Source: Methanosarcina sp. KYL-1
GTDB taxonomy: Archaea > Halobacteriota > Methanosarcinia > Methanosarcinales > Methanosarcinaceae
Reading direction: 5' to 3'
Length of the DNA: 62,307 bases
NCBI RefSeq assembly: GCF_024372725.1
Contig: NZ_VOUA01000023.1
Span: 1-62,307 of the forward strand
Numbering within the stretch: the first letter of the stretch is position 1; every line of letters starts with the position of its first letter. The position numbers and the translations under genes are program-made. The notes beneath the pieces were generated by a model that ran no database searches, was not told where the DNA came from, and saw only the letters and a list, made by a program, of their open reading frames with translations. Below, piece after piece: positions 163-8,129 of this stretch.

Positions 163-505
163 GCTGGAAAAGAAGGATTTAAGAGGCTGGTTACTTACGA
201 GCGAAAGGTTAGGAACGGACAGGAAGAAGGGATGAAACCTATCCTTTCTAGAGTAATCGTTTCGATTCTCGTGTGTGTGTGTGAAATGAGGCTTTGACTT
301 TCGCCCATAAGCAACCGGTATCTTACTACCGTATATTTCTATATATAGTTTTCGCTATCGTTTTGAAACTATTATTATATGTTGGGAATTATATGCTTTA
401 TTCTCTTCTGGCCACCTGGAAATGGCGCTTTGAGTGCTGCGCTATCCCCATGGCAAAGCTAATATCCTCACATGTACATATTTCATTAAGGAGAGAATCT
501 GGGGG
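163..505. other. Gene-free spacer between TnpB end and repeat-protein gene
   Basis: About 340 bases with no supported gene. A 72-residue open frame (294-512) starts at a TTG codon, has odd composition and no recognisable domain, so it was not accepted. An SD-like GGAGA at 490-494 precedes the next gene. Confidence 0.5.
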
Positions 506-621
506 CATGTAGGATTCTACCGCTGGACGAAACCGAAGGGTTCGAACTTGGAATTGCATCGGTTAAGAATAGGGACGAAGCAGGGGTAGTAGAGGCTCTG
601 AATTTCCTGGTCGAAATCGCA

Positions 622-1389
622 GTGAAGTATGCGAGGGATGGGCAGGAAAGCGATACCAGGAGAATTATCGAATACCTGAAGGAAATAGGAAAAGCGGCAG
701 CTGAAGCCCGGCTGGAAACAGTTACTATCAGTACTCTTCTACTTATTTCTCCTCTTGCAAAGGAAGCGTGCAGGCAGGAAATGGAATATGTGATGATAAG
801 CATCGCACTTGCGCTTGGCGAGATAGGTAAGGTTGCGGCAGGGCAGAGAATGGAAATCCCGGCAAAAGTGGCAGCTTCCTGCCTCGGGGAAATGGTAAAC
901 ACGGCAGCATTCAGGCAAAAGAAGAAGGAAACAATAGCAGTCATTTTTGCTCTGGGGGAGATCGGAAAAAGCGTTACCCAGCAGAGACTTGGGTATGCTG
1001 CGGAAAGCACAGTGGCCTTGCTGGGGGAAGCGGGAAAGGCTGCAGCAAGCCAGAAGTTTGAGGAAGCGGCATTAAATGCCGAACTCATTTTGCAGGAACT
1101 CGGTTCCAAAGCGATCGAAAAGGACCTTAAAGAAGCTGCCGATACCACGGCCCGCTTCCTGTGGGACATAGGAAAAACCGCTGACAAACAGGGGCTGGAC
1201 AGAGCTCTGCTTCAGGCAGCTTATTCCCTTGAGACGATCAAATTCGATGCCGATGACCGTTATCTTATGAGTGCTTCTATTGTTGCCGAGGTGGCTCTCC
1301 AGCATTTCGAAAACCTTGATATTGAGGGGCTCGAAGCAAAATTGAATCTGACTCCAAAAGGCAAGAAAAAATCTCAGGAAAGGTATTAA
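622..1389 (+). CDS. Alpha-helical (HEAT-like) repeat protein, paralog 1; start disturbed
   Basis: About seven degenerate 34-residue repeats built around L-x-E-I-G-K-A-A-A-x-Q-x-M-E suggest an alpha-solenoid, probably a cytoplasmic scaffold or binding protein; function unknown. The C-terminal block (LLQAAYSLETIKFDADDRYL) recurs in the two following genes. From 622 the only start is a GTG, but homology to the paralogs' N-termini (here LDETEGFELGIASV) runs upstream in the same frame to about 511. An ATG sits at 507-509 but is out of frame by one base; deleting one T would give M-R-I-L-P-L-D-E. The gene has therefore lost its original start by a one-base insertion (or this is a sequencing error), or it now starts internally. 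Confidence 0.65.
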   Translation: MKYARDGQESDTRRIIEYLKEIGKAAAEARLETVTISTLLLISPLAKEACRQEMEYVMISIALALGEIGKVAAGQRMEIPAKVAASCLGEMVNTAAFRQKKKETIAVIFALGEIGKSVTQQRLGYAAESTVALLGEAGKAAASQKFEEAALNAELILQELGSKAIEKDLKEAADTTARFLWDIGKTADKQGLDRALLQAAYSLETIKFDADDRYLMSASIVAEVALQHFENLDIEGLEAKLNLTPKGKKKSQERY

Positions 1390-1420
1390 AAGATCTCAGG
1401 AAAGTAATTGTTGTAAACTT

Positions 1421-1440
1421 CCTTGCCCCCGGGGGCAGGG
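1421..1440 (+). terminator. GC-rich inverted repeat after paralog 1
   Basis: CCTTGCCCCC followed directly by GGGGGCAGGG forms a nearly perfect 10-bp stem with no spacer. It lies 30 nt after the stop codon and may act as a transcript 3' end or mRNA stabiliser. Archaea do not strictly need hairpins to terminate, so the role is inferred. Confidence 0.4.
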
Positions 1441-1596
1441 AGAATTCCGGGCCTGAAATCCCTGTACCAGGGGCCTGTATTTTTCATGAATTGAGGGTGA
1501 AAATGCCGAATTGTATGAAAATTCGAATTGTATTAATGGCATAAATTCAACAGTTTTTCTTCCATATGCTAAAAAATTCCGGTGAGGTTATACTAA

Positions 1597-2436
1597 ATGT
1601 CCTCTTTAAACGAGGCCGGGGCAGAAGACCTTGGCTTGAGTTCTGTTAAAGATAATGATGAACTGGGCGTACTCAGGTCTCTGGATATCCTGACAGATCG
1701 CGGAACCGAATACATAAACAAAGGGCTTGAACCTGATGCCAGACGGGCTGTTACCAGGATAAAGGGCATAGGGAGAGCGGCTGCCCTTCAGGGAATGGAG
1801 ATAGGGGTTTTTGTTTCCCTCATTTCCCTGGGAAGAATGGCAGAAGCTGCAAGAGGGCAGAAACTGGAGGATACCGGCCTGAGCATACTGTACTCCTTCT
1901 GTTCCATCGGGAAAGCCGCCGCAGGGCAGGAAATGGAAGCAGCAGTCAGGGTTGCGGCTGCATACCTTGGAGAGATCGTAAACTCCGCTTCCAGGCAAGA
2001 TATGAAAAGAGAGGCTATGGTGGCGGCGCTTGCTCTGGGAAACATGGGAAGGGATACATACGGGCATTCAGGTGCCAGGACTCCGGAGAACGGAGGACTC
2101 TTCCCCACCCAGCCGGGTGTACTTCTGTCCCCTCCTCAGGTGAAGGAAGCGACAATTTTCTCCGAGGAGTTCCCGGGTGCTCTGGGCATTATGATAGAAC
2201 ATGCAAGGGAAAACAATTCCCTCCGGTATATGCCCTCCCTCGCTGATTACGAATTTATGTGCTCAAACTTCAGGAACTTTGAAAACACCGTTATCCAGGC
2301 TGCACATTCCCTCGAAACCATAAGATTCGAATCCGACGAAAAATACCTTATCAGCTATATACTCATGGCGAAAATGGACCTTGAAGCTTTCAGCGAGTAT
2401 GAGTTCACAAACGAAGCAGACGCAATGGAAAAATGA
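1597..2436 (+). CDS. Alpha-helical (HEAT-like) repeat protein, paralog 2
   Basis: 279 residues, ATG start after a GGTGAGG ribosome site at about 1581. The N-terminus (GAEDLGLSSVKDNDELGVLR) matches paralog 3 closely and is followed by four G-K/R-A-A-x-Q-x-M-E repeats. From about residue 150 the repeat pattern is interrupted by roughly 70 residues rich in P, S and G with no repeat character, then the shared C-terminal block (VIQAAHSLETIRFESDEKYL) resumes. This looks like replacement or decay of the central repeats. Second of three tandem paralogs; function unknown. Confidence 0.75.
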   Translation: MSSLNEAGAEDLGLSSVKDNDELGVLRSLDILTDRGTEYINKGLEPDARRAVTRIKGIGRAAALQGMEIGVFVSLISLGRMAEAARGQKLEDTGLSILYSFCSIGKAAAGQEMEAAVRVAAAYLGEIVNSASRQDMKREAMVAALALGNMGRDTYGHSGARTPENGGLFPTQPGVLLSPPQVKEATIFSEEFPGALGIMIEHARENNSLRYMPSLADYEFMCSNFRNFENTVIQAAHSLETIRFESDEKYLISYILMAKMDLEAFSEYEFTNEADAMEK

Positions 2437-2982
2437 AATAGTAAAGTTTTCTCCGATAGGTTAAATTATTCCGATCTTTTTATTTCTTTTTGGGAGACGC
2501 CGCCAGGCAAGCTGAAGGGAGCACTTTATTGACACCGGACCGAAAAACGGTTTACTGGGCCATAGGAAGTATTTCTCAGGCCGGGTGGAGTATTTCTCCA
2601 GGTATTCCGGCTCTTTTCATAGTATTCGGATCTGATTATTCGGATCTGATTATTCGGATCTGATTTTGTTTGCTCTTTTCTTTCCTGGAACCCGGGTCGG
2701 CTCCAGATACTTGCGGAGAGGGGAAAGGAGCTCAGAGATTACCTTTTCCGGACCTCTGGAGTAGTCTCGACCGATTAATCAGGAACTACCTGTTTTTCTT
2801 TAAAAACAGAACCTTATTTGTAATATAGTAACACTAATATCCTCATAACTTCATAGAGTAAAACAGACAATTATTACCCTGCGTAATAGTATGGAGCAAG
2901 TCTGGCCGGGCAAAAGTGAAATCATGCTGAACCCGGAAGTTTTGATTTACTTCTATCAACCTGAAAAAGAGGGAAAAAGAAA
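2437..2982. other. 546-base intergenic region with a 14-bp tandem repeat
   Basis: No protein gene is visible. It contains three perfect 14-bp repeats at 2624-2665 and an AT-rich stretch (2815-2850) that could hold the promoter of the next gene. Confidence 0.5.
2624..2665. repeat. 14-bp tandem repeat, 3 copies
   Basis: Unit ATTCGGATCTGATT repeated three times without mismatch. One of many short intergenic tandem arrays in this window. Confidence 0.9.
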
Positions 2983-3867
2983 ATGATTACGTTAAGCGAA
3001 GCAGAGGCTGTTGATGTGGGTTTATCTTCGGTTGAAGAAAAAGATGAGATACGGGTTTTCCAGGCTCTTGATTCCCTTGCCGGGATTGCGGGAGATTTCA
3101 TCAAAGAAAAAGAGGAGCTGGATGCTGAGAGGGTTATCCGCTGCATCGATGAAATCGCACAGGCGGCAGTAGGAGAGGGAATGGAGCTGGTTGCGATCAA
3201 TTCCGTCCTGGCCATGGGGAAACTGGCAAAGGCATCAGTCGAAAAGGGCGGCGAATCCACCCTGAACAAATCCGTTGTGGTAATAGGGAAACTGGGCAGG
3301 GCGTCGGCTGCAAATGGGCTTGAGGCCGGCTCAAAGGTGGCTATAACTACCCTTATGGAAATAAGGAAAGTTTCCCCCACGCAGAAGGGCCAGGAAGAAA
3401 CAATTACCATGTGCGTGACTTTAAAGGAAATCGGGGCAGCTGCGGCCGCTCAGGGCATGGAAGATACCCTGCTGAGTGCGATTACTTTCCTTGGGGAAAT
3501 AGGCAAAAATGCAGCAGGAGAAGGCCTTGAAACCGAGACTCTTAGCACACTAATCCTGCTCGAAGAATTGGGAAAACTAGCTGCGGAAAAATACTCTGAC
3601 GAAGCCCTGAGTTCAAGTGCTCTTTCTATTGAAGAGATTGGAAAGCTTTCCTTTAAGAAAGGGCTGTACGGGACCGTGCTCCAGAGCCAGTGGGCACTTG
3701 AAACCCTGAAGGTGCAGGCTGAAGAACAAATCCTGACCAGTTCTACTATTGTGGCGGAACTCGCACTTGAAAACTTCGAAAGCATGAAAATTGGAGATAC
3801 GGAAGAAAATGTGGAAAAACTCAAGGAAATAAAGGAACTCCATGCAAAAATCCTTTCCGGGCTTTAA
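2983..3867 (+). CDS. Alpha-helical (HEAT-like) repeat protein, paralog 3
   Basis: 294 residues, ATG start after an AGAGGGA ribosome site. This is the most regular of the three: about seven roughly 34-residue units of the form LxEIGKxAAxxGxExxxLxx fill residues 45-250, then the shared tail block (VLQSQWALETLKVQAEEQIL) and a charged helix. The repeats resemble HEAT/armadillo-type solenoids in pattern only. No signal peptide or membrane segment, so probably cytoplasmic. The tandem arrangement implies local gene duplication. Function unknown. Confidence 0.8.
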   Translation: MITLSEAEAVDVGLSSVEEKDEIRVFQALDSLAGIAGDFIKEKEELDAERVIRCIDEIAQAAVGEGMELVAINSVLAMGKLAKASVEKGGESTLNKSVVVIGKLGRASAANGLEAGSKVAITTLMEIRKVSPTQKGQEETITMCVTLKEIGAAAAAQGMEDTLLSAITFLGEIGKNAAGEGLETETLSTLILLEELGKLAAEKYSDEALSSSALSIEEIGKLSFKKGLYGTVLQSQWALETLKVQAEEQILTSSTIVAELALENFESMKIGDTEENVEKLKEIKELHAKILSGL

Positions 3868-4143: not shown

Positions 4144-4821
4144 GGTTAATTTATTCTCACTCATAAAAGATTATTTTGTCGATCAGGGAGATGGAATTCG
4201 CCAGCTAATTACCTGGTTTTAAACCTTGTAATGGAAGAAGAAGCCCTTCTCCAGGCTGGAGCACAACGTTATGAGCGAACTGATTCCCGCAGAGCCAGTA
4301 GAAACGGATACAAACCCCGAACTCTCCTGACCAAGTATGGAGAACTCGAATTGTTGAAGCCTCAATTCCGTGAGTTTCCCTTTGAAACTCAGGTGTTTGA
4401 GAAGTATTAGAGAGTTGAAAAAGCCATCTTATCCGCTATAGCGGAATCTTACCTGCAAGGTGTTTCCACCCGAAGGGTGGAAAAGGTCATGACTGCATTA
4501 GGAGCAGGAGAAATCTCAGCCTCTTCTGTTTCCAGGATTACCAAAGAACTGGATGAGAAGGTTGAAGAATTCCTGTCAAAACCAATAGAATATGAAATCC
4601 CTTACCTGCTCATTGATGCGACTTATTTCAAGATAAGAGATGGACTTCATTATGAAAACAAAGCTCTCTTTGTAGTTGCCGGGATCAGGGACGACGGTTA
4701 CCGTGAGATTCTTGGAACAAGATTGGCAGACAGTGAAGACTCCCTGTTCTGGGAAGATCTTTTCGATGATCTGAAAGAAACAGGCTTAAGAGATGTCAAG
4801 TTAATCGTTTCTGATGGCCAT
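4142..4821 (+). pseudogene. IS256-family (mutator-type) transposase, frameshifted, with in-frame TAG, truncated
   Basis: The conceptual protein runs from ATG 4142 (MVNLFSLIKDYFVDQG...) through a typical IS256 N-terminal region (SRRASRNGYKPR; YLQGVSTRRVEKVM) to the first DDE motif (LLIDATYFKIRDG) and second-Asp region (DVKLIVSDGH), then stops matching at about 4820. Three lesions are visible: one T missing near 4220 (WF-stop where WFLNLV is expected), an in-frame TAG at 4408-4410 (EKY-TAG-RVEKA, where IS256 proteins often have Q), and loss of the C-terminal half. The TAG may be a CAG-to-TAG change or pyrrolysine readthrough. Cannot encode an active transposase as it stands. Confidence 0.85.
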
Positions 4822-4822
4822 T

Positions 4823-4933
4823 GTCCTCATAGCAGGCATAGCCATTGTAAACGGAGCGGAAAAGATTGTTTCCAGGGATAGGGATTTTATCAGCATCGGG
4901 AAAGTTTCCGACCTGGACGTTCTGGTCTATTGA
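4823..4933 (+). pseudogene. vapC 3' fragment (PIN toxin tail) joined to the transposase remnant
   Basis: These 111 bases encode VLIAGIAIVNGAEKIVSRD... ending LDVLVY-stop, almost identical to the last 37 residues of the intact VapC ending at 8062. The PIN-domain C-terminal Asp residues are kept, but there is no start and no N-terminus. The join to the transposase is abrupt and out of frame, so this is the leftover of a second vapC broken by insertion or recombination. Confidence 0.85.
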
Positions 4934-5070
4934 CCTGAATTTTTATATGAACTGCCCCTCCCCAACATGTCAATCTCTATGCAAGAGAGGTCTTTCAAAG
5001 GAAAAACAAAATGAAAAAGTAAAAAAAGCTAACAAAAAGACAAAAGCCAAAAAGTAAAAGTTGTGAGAAT

Positions 5071-7463: not shown

Positions 7464-7682
7464 ATGGGTACAAAGACAATCTCAATCCGCGATGATACCT
7501 ACGATCTGCTAAAAAATGCGAAGCGTGAGGGAGAAAGCTTCAGCGATGTTATAGACCGCATGCTGGTGAGAGAAAAGGGGGATCTCTCGGCTTATTTTGG
7601 TGCACTGAAAGACGAAGAACTTCTGGAGGGGCTGGAAGAGGATTCCAGGAAAATAAGGGAACTTTCGAGGCTCAGGATATGA
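7464..7682 (+). CDS. vapB: VapB-type antitoxin (DUF217-like)
   Basis: 72 residues from ATG 7464. The opening MGTKTISIRDDTYDLLKNAK is the ribbon-helix-helix-type N-terminus of archaeal VapB antitoxins, and GESFSDVIDRML is the usual second helix. The acidic C-terminal part would bind and inhibit the PIN toxin encoded next. The stop overlaps the vapC start (ATGA at 7679-7682), so the pair is translationally coupled. The antitoxin probably represses its own promoter (TATA-like CTTATATTTC at about 7432). Confidence 0.88.
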   Translation: MGTKTISIRDDTYDLLKNAKREGESFSDVIDRMLVREKGDLSAYFGALKDEELLEGLEEDSRKIRELSRLRI

Positions 7683-8062
7683 TCGTACTCGACACCAGTA
7701 CCCTTATCGACTTTTTCAGGGGCGTAGAAAAAACCCGGGAATTCATGGACAAAGATGTGACAACCACTGCTATAAGTTACTACGAAATCCTCTCAGGGGT
7801 CAAACACAGAAAAGCAAGGAAAGAAGAGCAGTTTTTCAGAAGGTTTTTCTCCGAAATTGAAATACTGGACTTCGATCTGAGAGCCGCTGAGGAAGCCAGT
7901 GATATAATGGGCAGGCTGCTGGGCCTTGGAACTCCGGTAAACAGTGCGGATGTCCTCATAGCAGGCATAGCCGTGGTAAACGGGGCGGAAAAGATTGCCA
8001 CCCGGGATAGGGATTTTATCAGCATCGGGAAAGTTTCCGAGCTGGATGTATTTGTCTATTGA
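7679..8062 (+). CDS. vapC: VapC toxin, PIN-domain ribonuclease
   Basis: 127 residues. The PIN-fold acidic residues are all present: D5 in IVLDTSTLIDFF, the Glu in ISYYEILSGV, the Asp in NSADVLIAG and the Asp pair in ATRDRDF. PIN toxins cleave RNA with Mg2+ and are held inactive by VapB. It overlaps vapB by 4 bases. The last 37 codons are nearly duplicated at 4823-4933, showing that a second copy once existed upstream. Confidence 0.92.
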   Translation: MIVLDTSTLIDFFRGVEKTREFMDKDVTTTAISYYEILSGVKHRKARKEEQFFRRFFSEIEILDFDLRAAEEASDIMGRLLGLGTPVNSADVLIAGIAVVNGAEKIATRDRDFISIGKVSELDVFVY

Positions 8063-8129
8063 GCTGCAGTATTTTGTACAGCTCTCCAGTCCTGTGCTGG
8101 ATTTTTTTTCATTGTTGATTCCTTCTGTC

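Follow-up and report, generated by a model that had tools for sequence, protein, structure and literature searches.

The 62,307-nucleotide stretch of Methanosarcina sp. KYL-1 DNA analyzed here (contig NZ_VOUA01000023.1, called 'the window' at its full length) carries near its 5′ end three tandem genes on the + strand, designated gene 1, gene 2 and gene 3 (g1, g2 and g3). Their products are paralogous proteins composed of a 23-residue helical repeat that also occurs behind the transmembrane part of DUF2254 membrane proteins, and they are predicted to fold as alpha-solenoids. Furthermore, g1 lacks an ATG at the codon homologous to the start codons of g2 and g3. We lean, with modest confidence, toward the view that g1, g2 and g3 are soluble protein-binding scaffolds with paralog-specific partners.

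The genes and their parts are as follows (aa, amino acids):

514..1389, + strand: g1, 291 aa with a start at 514; soluble protein of 23-residue repeats, predicted alpha-solenoid
1597..2436, + strand: g2, 279 aa; predicted solenoid half, then a low-confidence half that ends in a C-terminal block shared by all three proteins
1597..2070, + strand: solenoid half of g2, residues 1-158, as delimited by the structure model
2983..3867, + strand: g3, 294 aa; predicted 13-helix solenoid

A 23-residue repeat shared with membrane proteins

Pairwise and three-way alignments bear out the proposal of an earlier sequence-only reading that the three + strand open reading frames (ORFs) are paralogs. The g2 and g3 proteins are 26% identical over 280 aa (E 3e-23), g1 and g3 are 33% identical, and the C-terminal block noted by that reading, which consists of helix 11 and part of helix 12, is common to all three. 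The same reading saw no catalytic domain, and indeed there is no enzyme family among the Pfam and NCBIfam matches, including any strong profile match of the kind that would have spoken against it. No family of either collection exceeds its cut-off for g1, g2 or g3, which yield sub-threshold matches only, and g3 has no sequence relative in the PDB at E values up to 10.

The repeat length is another matter, since the sequence-only reading had described about seven repeats of ~34 residues. When each protein is compared with itself at lags of 8 to 60 residues, lag 23 gives z scores of 8.7, 5.9 and 9.8 for g1, g2 and g3, respectively, and lag 34 lies at the noise level (-0.2, -1.4 and -0.5, with 99% of null maxima below about 3.7). 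The strongest lag was determined for fetched proteins of at least 240 aa, with proteins that are identical in their C-terminal 120 residues counted once. It is 23 or 46 in all 112 soluble family members and in all 12 longer relatives, and the median z at lag 34 ranges from -1.0 to 1.5 per group, with no excess. The peaks at 23 and 46, with none at 34, set the repeat unit at 23 residues. Each unit is a single helix, and a pair of units covers 46 residues.

An AlphaFold model of g3 built from 73 family sequences has 13 helices in place of seven repeats, of which 10 are exactly 20 residues long, with turns mostly of three residues (predicted local distance difference test score (pLDDT) 92; predicted template modeling score (pTM) 0.89). 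The predicted fold thus belongs to the alpha-solenoid class for the whole of g3, for residues 1-158 of g2 and, by alignment, for g1. A Foldseek search of the PDB with g3 returns three matches at E <0.001, all of them designed proteins; they include a circular tandem repeat protein (7rdr, E 7.9e-6) and a designed repeat with a bound peptide (7ue2, E 5.5e-4). Designed helical repeats likewise rank first with VIA-align 2 (Z 21.0, 20.2 and 18.9). They resemble g3 in their near-regular helix stacks and short turns (DHR14, DHR49, DHR54 and kin, and the peptide-binding RPB_PLP3_R6), and the listed matches share about 10-23% sequence identity with it; because these proteins are designed and not natural, common descent does not come into consideration. 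The highest natural match is 4imj (Z 15.1), an Ssu72/symplekin entry, followed by RRP12 (14.9) and by armadillo proteins, several of which carry bound peptides, at about 13. A Z near or under about 13 may reflect the mere common repeat arrangement, and the g3 fold is therefore placed in the alpha-solenoid class and no further. A viral fold library gave no match at E <0.001.

The HEAT-like fold suggested by the sequence-only reading is not supported, in contrast to the solenoid class itself. HEAT repeats span about 30-47 residues and have unequal helices A and B, TPR repeats have 34 residues, and armadillo repeats are three-helix units of 42 residues. The window family resembles HEAT, armadillo and PBS-HEAT (PF03130) proteins in being an all-helical solenoid, as reflected by the natural solenoids at Z 13-15, and differs from them by its period of 23/46 and its equal helices. 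Taken alone, a period of 46 would be compatible with HEAT repeats, but its division into two equal halves of 23 is not: lag 23 or 46 dominates in all 124 proteins, and the g3 unit is a single ~20-residue helix with a three-residue turn. The HEAT profiles PF13646 and PF03130 match none of g1, g2 and g3 at E values up to 10, although PF03130 passes its cut-off in a long membrane relative (L044, 6.7e-9) and falls just short in another (L038). Likewise, no TPR or armadillo profile matches the window proteins at that limit, and there is no excess at lag 34. Membership in any of these three families was therefore rejected on profile matches and period, and the armadillo similarity (Z about 13) does not settle kinship either way.

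The repeats do have relatives in a known family. The same 23/46 repeats occur, together with strongly hydrophobic N-terminal segments, in twelve longer proteins (391-837 aa), of which eleven come from other genera and L049 belongs to a Methanosarcina genome. Their highest 19-residue hydropathy is 2.36-3.13, compared with a maximum of 1.74 among the soluble members (n=112), which have no membrane stretch. DUF2254 (PF10011) is above the cut-off in four of the six long proteins scanned with Pfam; in the remaining two, the N-terminus is hydrophobic and matches no family convincingly. An hhalign comparison of the g3 profile with a profile of nine DUF2254-type proteins yields a probability of 99.2 (E 1.5e-19) over 256 columns located behind the membrane domain, and BLASTP aligns g1 with L037 at 32% identity over 198 aa (E 9e-23), although similar repeat composition may inflate both E values. 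As judged from these comparisons, the window proteins are homologous to the DUF2254-associated repeat domain. The long relatives combine membrane domains with the same repeats, and therefore the soluble proteins resemble their cytosolic half. The window proteins differ in being separate soluble array genes that lack a transmembrane stretch. PF10011 matches none of g1, g2 and g3, nor anything in the window's whole genome at E 0.001; at this threshold it is found in 11 of the 30 genomes of the genus. The accessible portion of PMC11184937 describes predicted knotted and unknotted DUF2254 members and gives no function for the family.

Four of the proteins with the 23/46 period (L042:4459-6162, L043:4146-5849, L046:3376-5049 and L038:7963-9549) have a hydrophobic N-terminus that is not recognizable as DUF2254; L043 and L038 are the two that were scanned with Pfam. 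These N-termini are perhaps a second kind of membrane anchor.

Start codons of g1 and g2

The ORF listing used for the window accepts ATG, GTG and TTG starts and gives ORFs 622-1389, 1597-2436 and 2983-3867. The sequence-only reading accordingly began g1 at GTG 622. The homologous N-terminus extends in frame back to ATT 514, and 622 is probably an internal codon. Two upstream features are relevant:

434..513, + strand: conserved leader of g1; contains CTAATATCCTCA at 459-470 and a ribosome-binding-like GGGGG run at 501-505
514..516, + strand: proposed g1 start codon ATT, aligned with the ATG codons of g2 and g3

The alignment pairs ILPLDE of g1 with MITLSE and MSSLNE of g2 and g3. Across 28 genomes of three genera, the codon in question is ATT in 26, ATA in one, ATC in one (preceded directly by an in-frame GTG) and ATG in none. 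This count employed a pattern beginning with ATT, supplemented by L071, where the pattern failed and the sequence was read by eye, and by five further genomes read without the pattern. Twenty of the 28 have no ATG, GTG or TTG from the upstream in-frame stop to the proposed start. For 9 of 22 genomes the stop is one codon upstream of the ATT, so that no other candidate exists; three more have a second ATT as their sole alternative. Where a second ATT is inserted, the first keeps its spacing from the GGGGG run. The distance from the beginning of this run to the ATT is 13 bases in 16 of 22 genomes and 11-16 bases in all of them; usually, and in the window, the ATT follows the run by 8 nucleotides. 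Mean pairwise identity among 22 genomes is 0.74 in the leader (-80 to -1) and 0.77 in the first 60 coding bases, versus 0.41 at -130 to -81.

Codons 1-35 of g1 exhibit a median ratio of nonsynonymous to synonymous substitution rates (dN/dS) of 0.215 (96 of 190 pairs usable), and the remainder of the gene a median of 0.14, both indicative of purifying selection; all dN/dS medians leave out pairs whose proportion of synonymous differences (pS) lies outside 0.05-0.65. The homologous codon of g2, counted with an anchored pattern, is ATG in 17, GTG in one and ACG in nine of 27 genomes. For the eight ACG genomes that were tested, the median dN/dS of codons 2-25 is 0.11 (27 of 28 pairs), and this value is the same under both patterns.

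Several observations count against the proposed start codons. Eight of the 28 genomes do have a standard in-frame codon between the upstream stop and the proposed g1 start: an ATG 21 codons before it in L058, L065, L069 and L070 (L065 also has a TTG), a GTG directly before it in L060 and L071, and a TTG before it in L073 and L124. The largest dN/dS of any single pair in codons 1-35 is 1.70, and the five g1 sequences that have no standard codon in this region give a median of 0.31 and a maximum of 0.69, with 4 of 10 pairs usable. Moreover, a standard codon is always present downstream, 9 to 68 codons into g1 at positions that differ among genomes, and g1 may instead start at such a codon with a shorter N-terminus. 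The g1 gene probably begins at 514 with a non-AUG codon, and initiation at AUU (g1) and ACG (g2) behind a strong ribosome-binding site is the simplest reading.

Two other candidates for the g1 start were rejected. A frameshift start from an out-of-frame ATG 8 bases before the ATT does not hold because this ATG is absent in 7 of 23 genomes (L051, L058, L065, L069, L070, L071 and L073) and is followed directly by TAG in the window. An in-frame CTG located five codons upstream is present in some genomes and is separated from the gene by a stop in others.

The 12 bases CTAATATCCTCA at 459-470 upstream of g1 recur identically at 2834-2845 upstream of g3. Similar stretches are present upstream of g1 in the aligned genomes and upstream of g3 in a few, and this element is possibly a promoter.

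The gene array in Methanosarcina

The window's genome contains seven family matches: three in the window (contig C23), one each on C21 and C46, and two on C10. Every genome of the genus (n=30) yields one or more matches at E 0.001 or better; G016 and G017 each yield just one weak match, of group g5. At E 1e-4 or better, 33 of 294 genomes of the phylum match, and open frames of ~300 aa in that search come from the window's genus and the genus labeled g7 only. Among the matches listed, E <1e-97 is reached only in 28 of the 30 Methanosarcina genomes, in 4 of 4 genomes of genus g7 and in 2 of 2 of genus g110; five other genera have weaker listed matches. In a tree of 57 sequences, g1, g2, g3, g4, g5, C21, C46 and the DUF2254 repeats each lie on one side of a branch with Shimodaira-Hasegawa-like approximate likelihood ratio test (SH-aLRT) support of 100, which gives seven old soluble paralog groups. 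The tree is unrooted and the joins between groups are not settled.

The paralogs are thus genus-wide and diverged long ago, and not the product of the local, recent tandem expansion that the sequence-only reading envisaged. Its description of the system as lineage-specific agrees with the distribution observed so far for the soluble form, whereas the repeat domain reaches further, into longer membrane proteins of other archaea. As to neighbors in other Methanosarcina, which that reading proposed to look for, the order is g1-g2-g3-g4-g5, often between mtmCB and trpGEF. A typical locus consists of a FAD oxidoreductase gene, mtmC-mtmB, g1, g2, a NosD/beta-helix/thioredoxin gene in some cases, g3, g4 and g5, followed by trpG-trpE-trpF on the opposite strand, where MtmC, MtmB, TrpG and TrpE are identified by Pfam. 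Among 25 loci chosen for fetching, many of which end at contig ends or at the limits of the fetched stretch, 21 have the order g1-g2-g3 and 15 have trpG downstream; among the 21, nine carry pieces of mtmB upstream of g1. The array of the window's genome is split, with g1-g3 on C23 and g4-g5 beside trpG and trpE on C10.

The gene between g2 and g3, which 10 of 21 loci carry in the same orientation, encodes a NosD/beta-helix protein with a thioredoxin domain:

L059:7955-9457 and L065:8221-9723, same strand as the array: NosD/beta-helix and thioredoxin gene, from Pfam on the L059 copy

The length of g4 varies, from 163-237 aa in L055, L056, L062, L063, L066, L067 and L068 to 309-312 aa in L050, L073 and L054 (the window's genome). 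Pyrrolysine read-through of the short g4 genes was rejected, as their stops are TAA or TGA and the frames that follow, by eye, are not family sequence.

Elsewhere in the window, a 116-base stretch at 4822-4937 is repeated at 7951-8066 with 88.8% identity. The former copy lies at the end of a truncated Mutator-type transposase ORF (4477-4881; PF00872), and the latter ends ORF 7679-8062, which reads as VapC/PIN-like from its sequence alone. This repeat is a rearrangement scar.

Possible functions of the array

In the scaffold explanation that we favor, g1, g2 and g3 would encode soluble cytosolic proteins with one helix per 23-residue repeat, whose helix stack would most likely hold another protein or peptide along its surface. 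They belong to an array that comprises as many as five tandem paralogs and is found, with two further dispersed paralogs, across Methanosarcina. The soluble forms probably arose as free versions of the DUF2254-type cytosolic repeat domain, each paralog was probably kept for a different partner with the common C-terminal block reserved for a shared contact, and g1 is probably held at a low or regulated level by AUU initiation. A more specific version seems tentative to us: a set of adaptors made of natural single-helix 23-residue solenoids, equivalent to free DUF2254-type halves, in which non-AUG starts brake translation and set the ratio of the products. Here, an AUH start (mostly AUU) of g1 would have been kept across three genera and an ACG start of g2 in part of the genus.

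Some of the data weigh against the scaffold explanation. The confident part of the g2 model stops at about residue 158, after seven helices, and the remainder is at pLDDT <50. The second half of g2 also evolves faster, with a median dN/dS of 0.31 in the middle of the gene (alignment columns 150-222) and 0.08 and 0.12, indicative of purifying selection, at its ends, in a run that took a later codon as the start in at least L055, L061, L062 and L068; its end is nevertheless homologous to the shared C-terminal block by alignment, despite the low model confidence. The best structural matches of g3 are designed proteins, and the VIA-align 2 caution applies to the armadillo matches. Among g3 orthologs, conserved residues are concentrated in helix 2 and helices 9-11; we claim no binding site, because per-helix conservation across paralogs is nearly flat (0.44-0.59). 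Finally, because the root of the tree is not known, the proposed origin from a membrane form draws on distribution only.

Three other functions merit consideration. The products of g1-g5 might be subunits of one hetero-oligomer, stacked side by side or end to end via the C-terminal block that they have in common, with the array setting stoichiometry and weak starts tuning g1 and g2. The order g1-g2-g3 in 21 of 25 loci would be consistent with this arrangement, as would the noncanonical starts of g1 and some g2 genes, which do not occur among the g3 rows listed, and the structural matches include designed cyclic and filament-forming repeats, evidence that folds of this kind are able to assemble. 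However, 12 of 21 loci have something between g2 and g3 (in 10 of them the same-strand NosD-like gene), g4 and g5 are on another contig in the window's genome, and g4 is shortened in 7 of 10 loci examined. We consider a hetero-oligomer rather unlikely. We assign a still lower probability to the possibility that g1-g5 regulate or assist their neighbors in corrinoid methylamine methyltransfer (mtmCB) or tryptophan synthesis (trpGEF). The proximity of mtmB pieces and trpG in the loci counted above favors such a role, but 12 of 21 loci show no mtmB next to the array, the trp genes are on the opposite strand, and the dispersed paralogs C21 and C46 lie beside unrelated genes (ECF transporter, helicase, DUF711). 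In addition, the window has neither mtmCB nor trpGEF beside its array.

Equally improbable, in our estimation, are lipid- or small-molecule-binding sensors that would titrate the input or output of DUF2254-solenoid membrane sensors as their free counterpart. Small hydrophobic residues are visibly abundant in the repeats, and in the membrane forms the repeats follow a transmembrane domain. However, DUF2254 has no match at E 0.001 in the window's genome and 18 others of the 30, so the soluble forms cannot depend on it in those genomes, and the part of PMC11184937 cited above gives no function for DUF2254. The soluble scaffold with paralog-specific partners is the explanation that we prefer.

A text search of the literature returned nothing obviously on these genes, nor does the accessible portion of PMC8211752 contain anything on them. 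PMC2647740, in its accessible portion, reports seven unnamed alpha-rod proteins in M. mazei, which may or may not belong to the same family. The fold class is already known; the new elements are the length of the repeat, its link to DUF2254 and the start codons. Overall, paralogy, the shared block, the alpha-solenoid class and the absence of an enzyme family survive from the sequence-only reading, seven HEAT-like repeats of 34 residues do not, and the GTG start of g1 probably does not.

These findings describe a repeat class that has no Pfam or NCBIfam match in the three window proteins, and tie an orphan Methanosarcina array to the DUF2254 membrane family. ORF listings based on ATG, GTG and TTG probably truncate g1, and g2 in genomes with ACG, and these gene models are corrected here. 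Moreover, g1 would provide an archaeal example in which a conserved non-AUG start can be tested directly.

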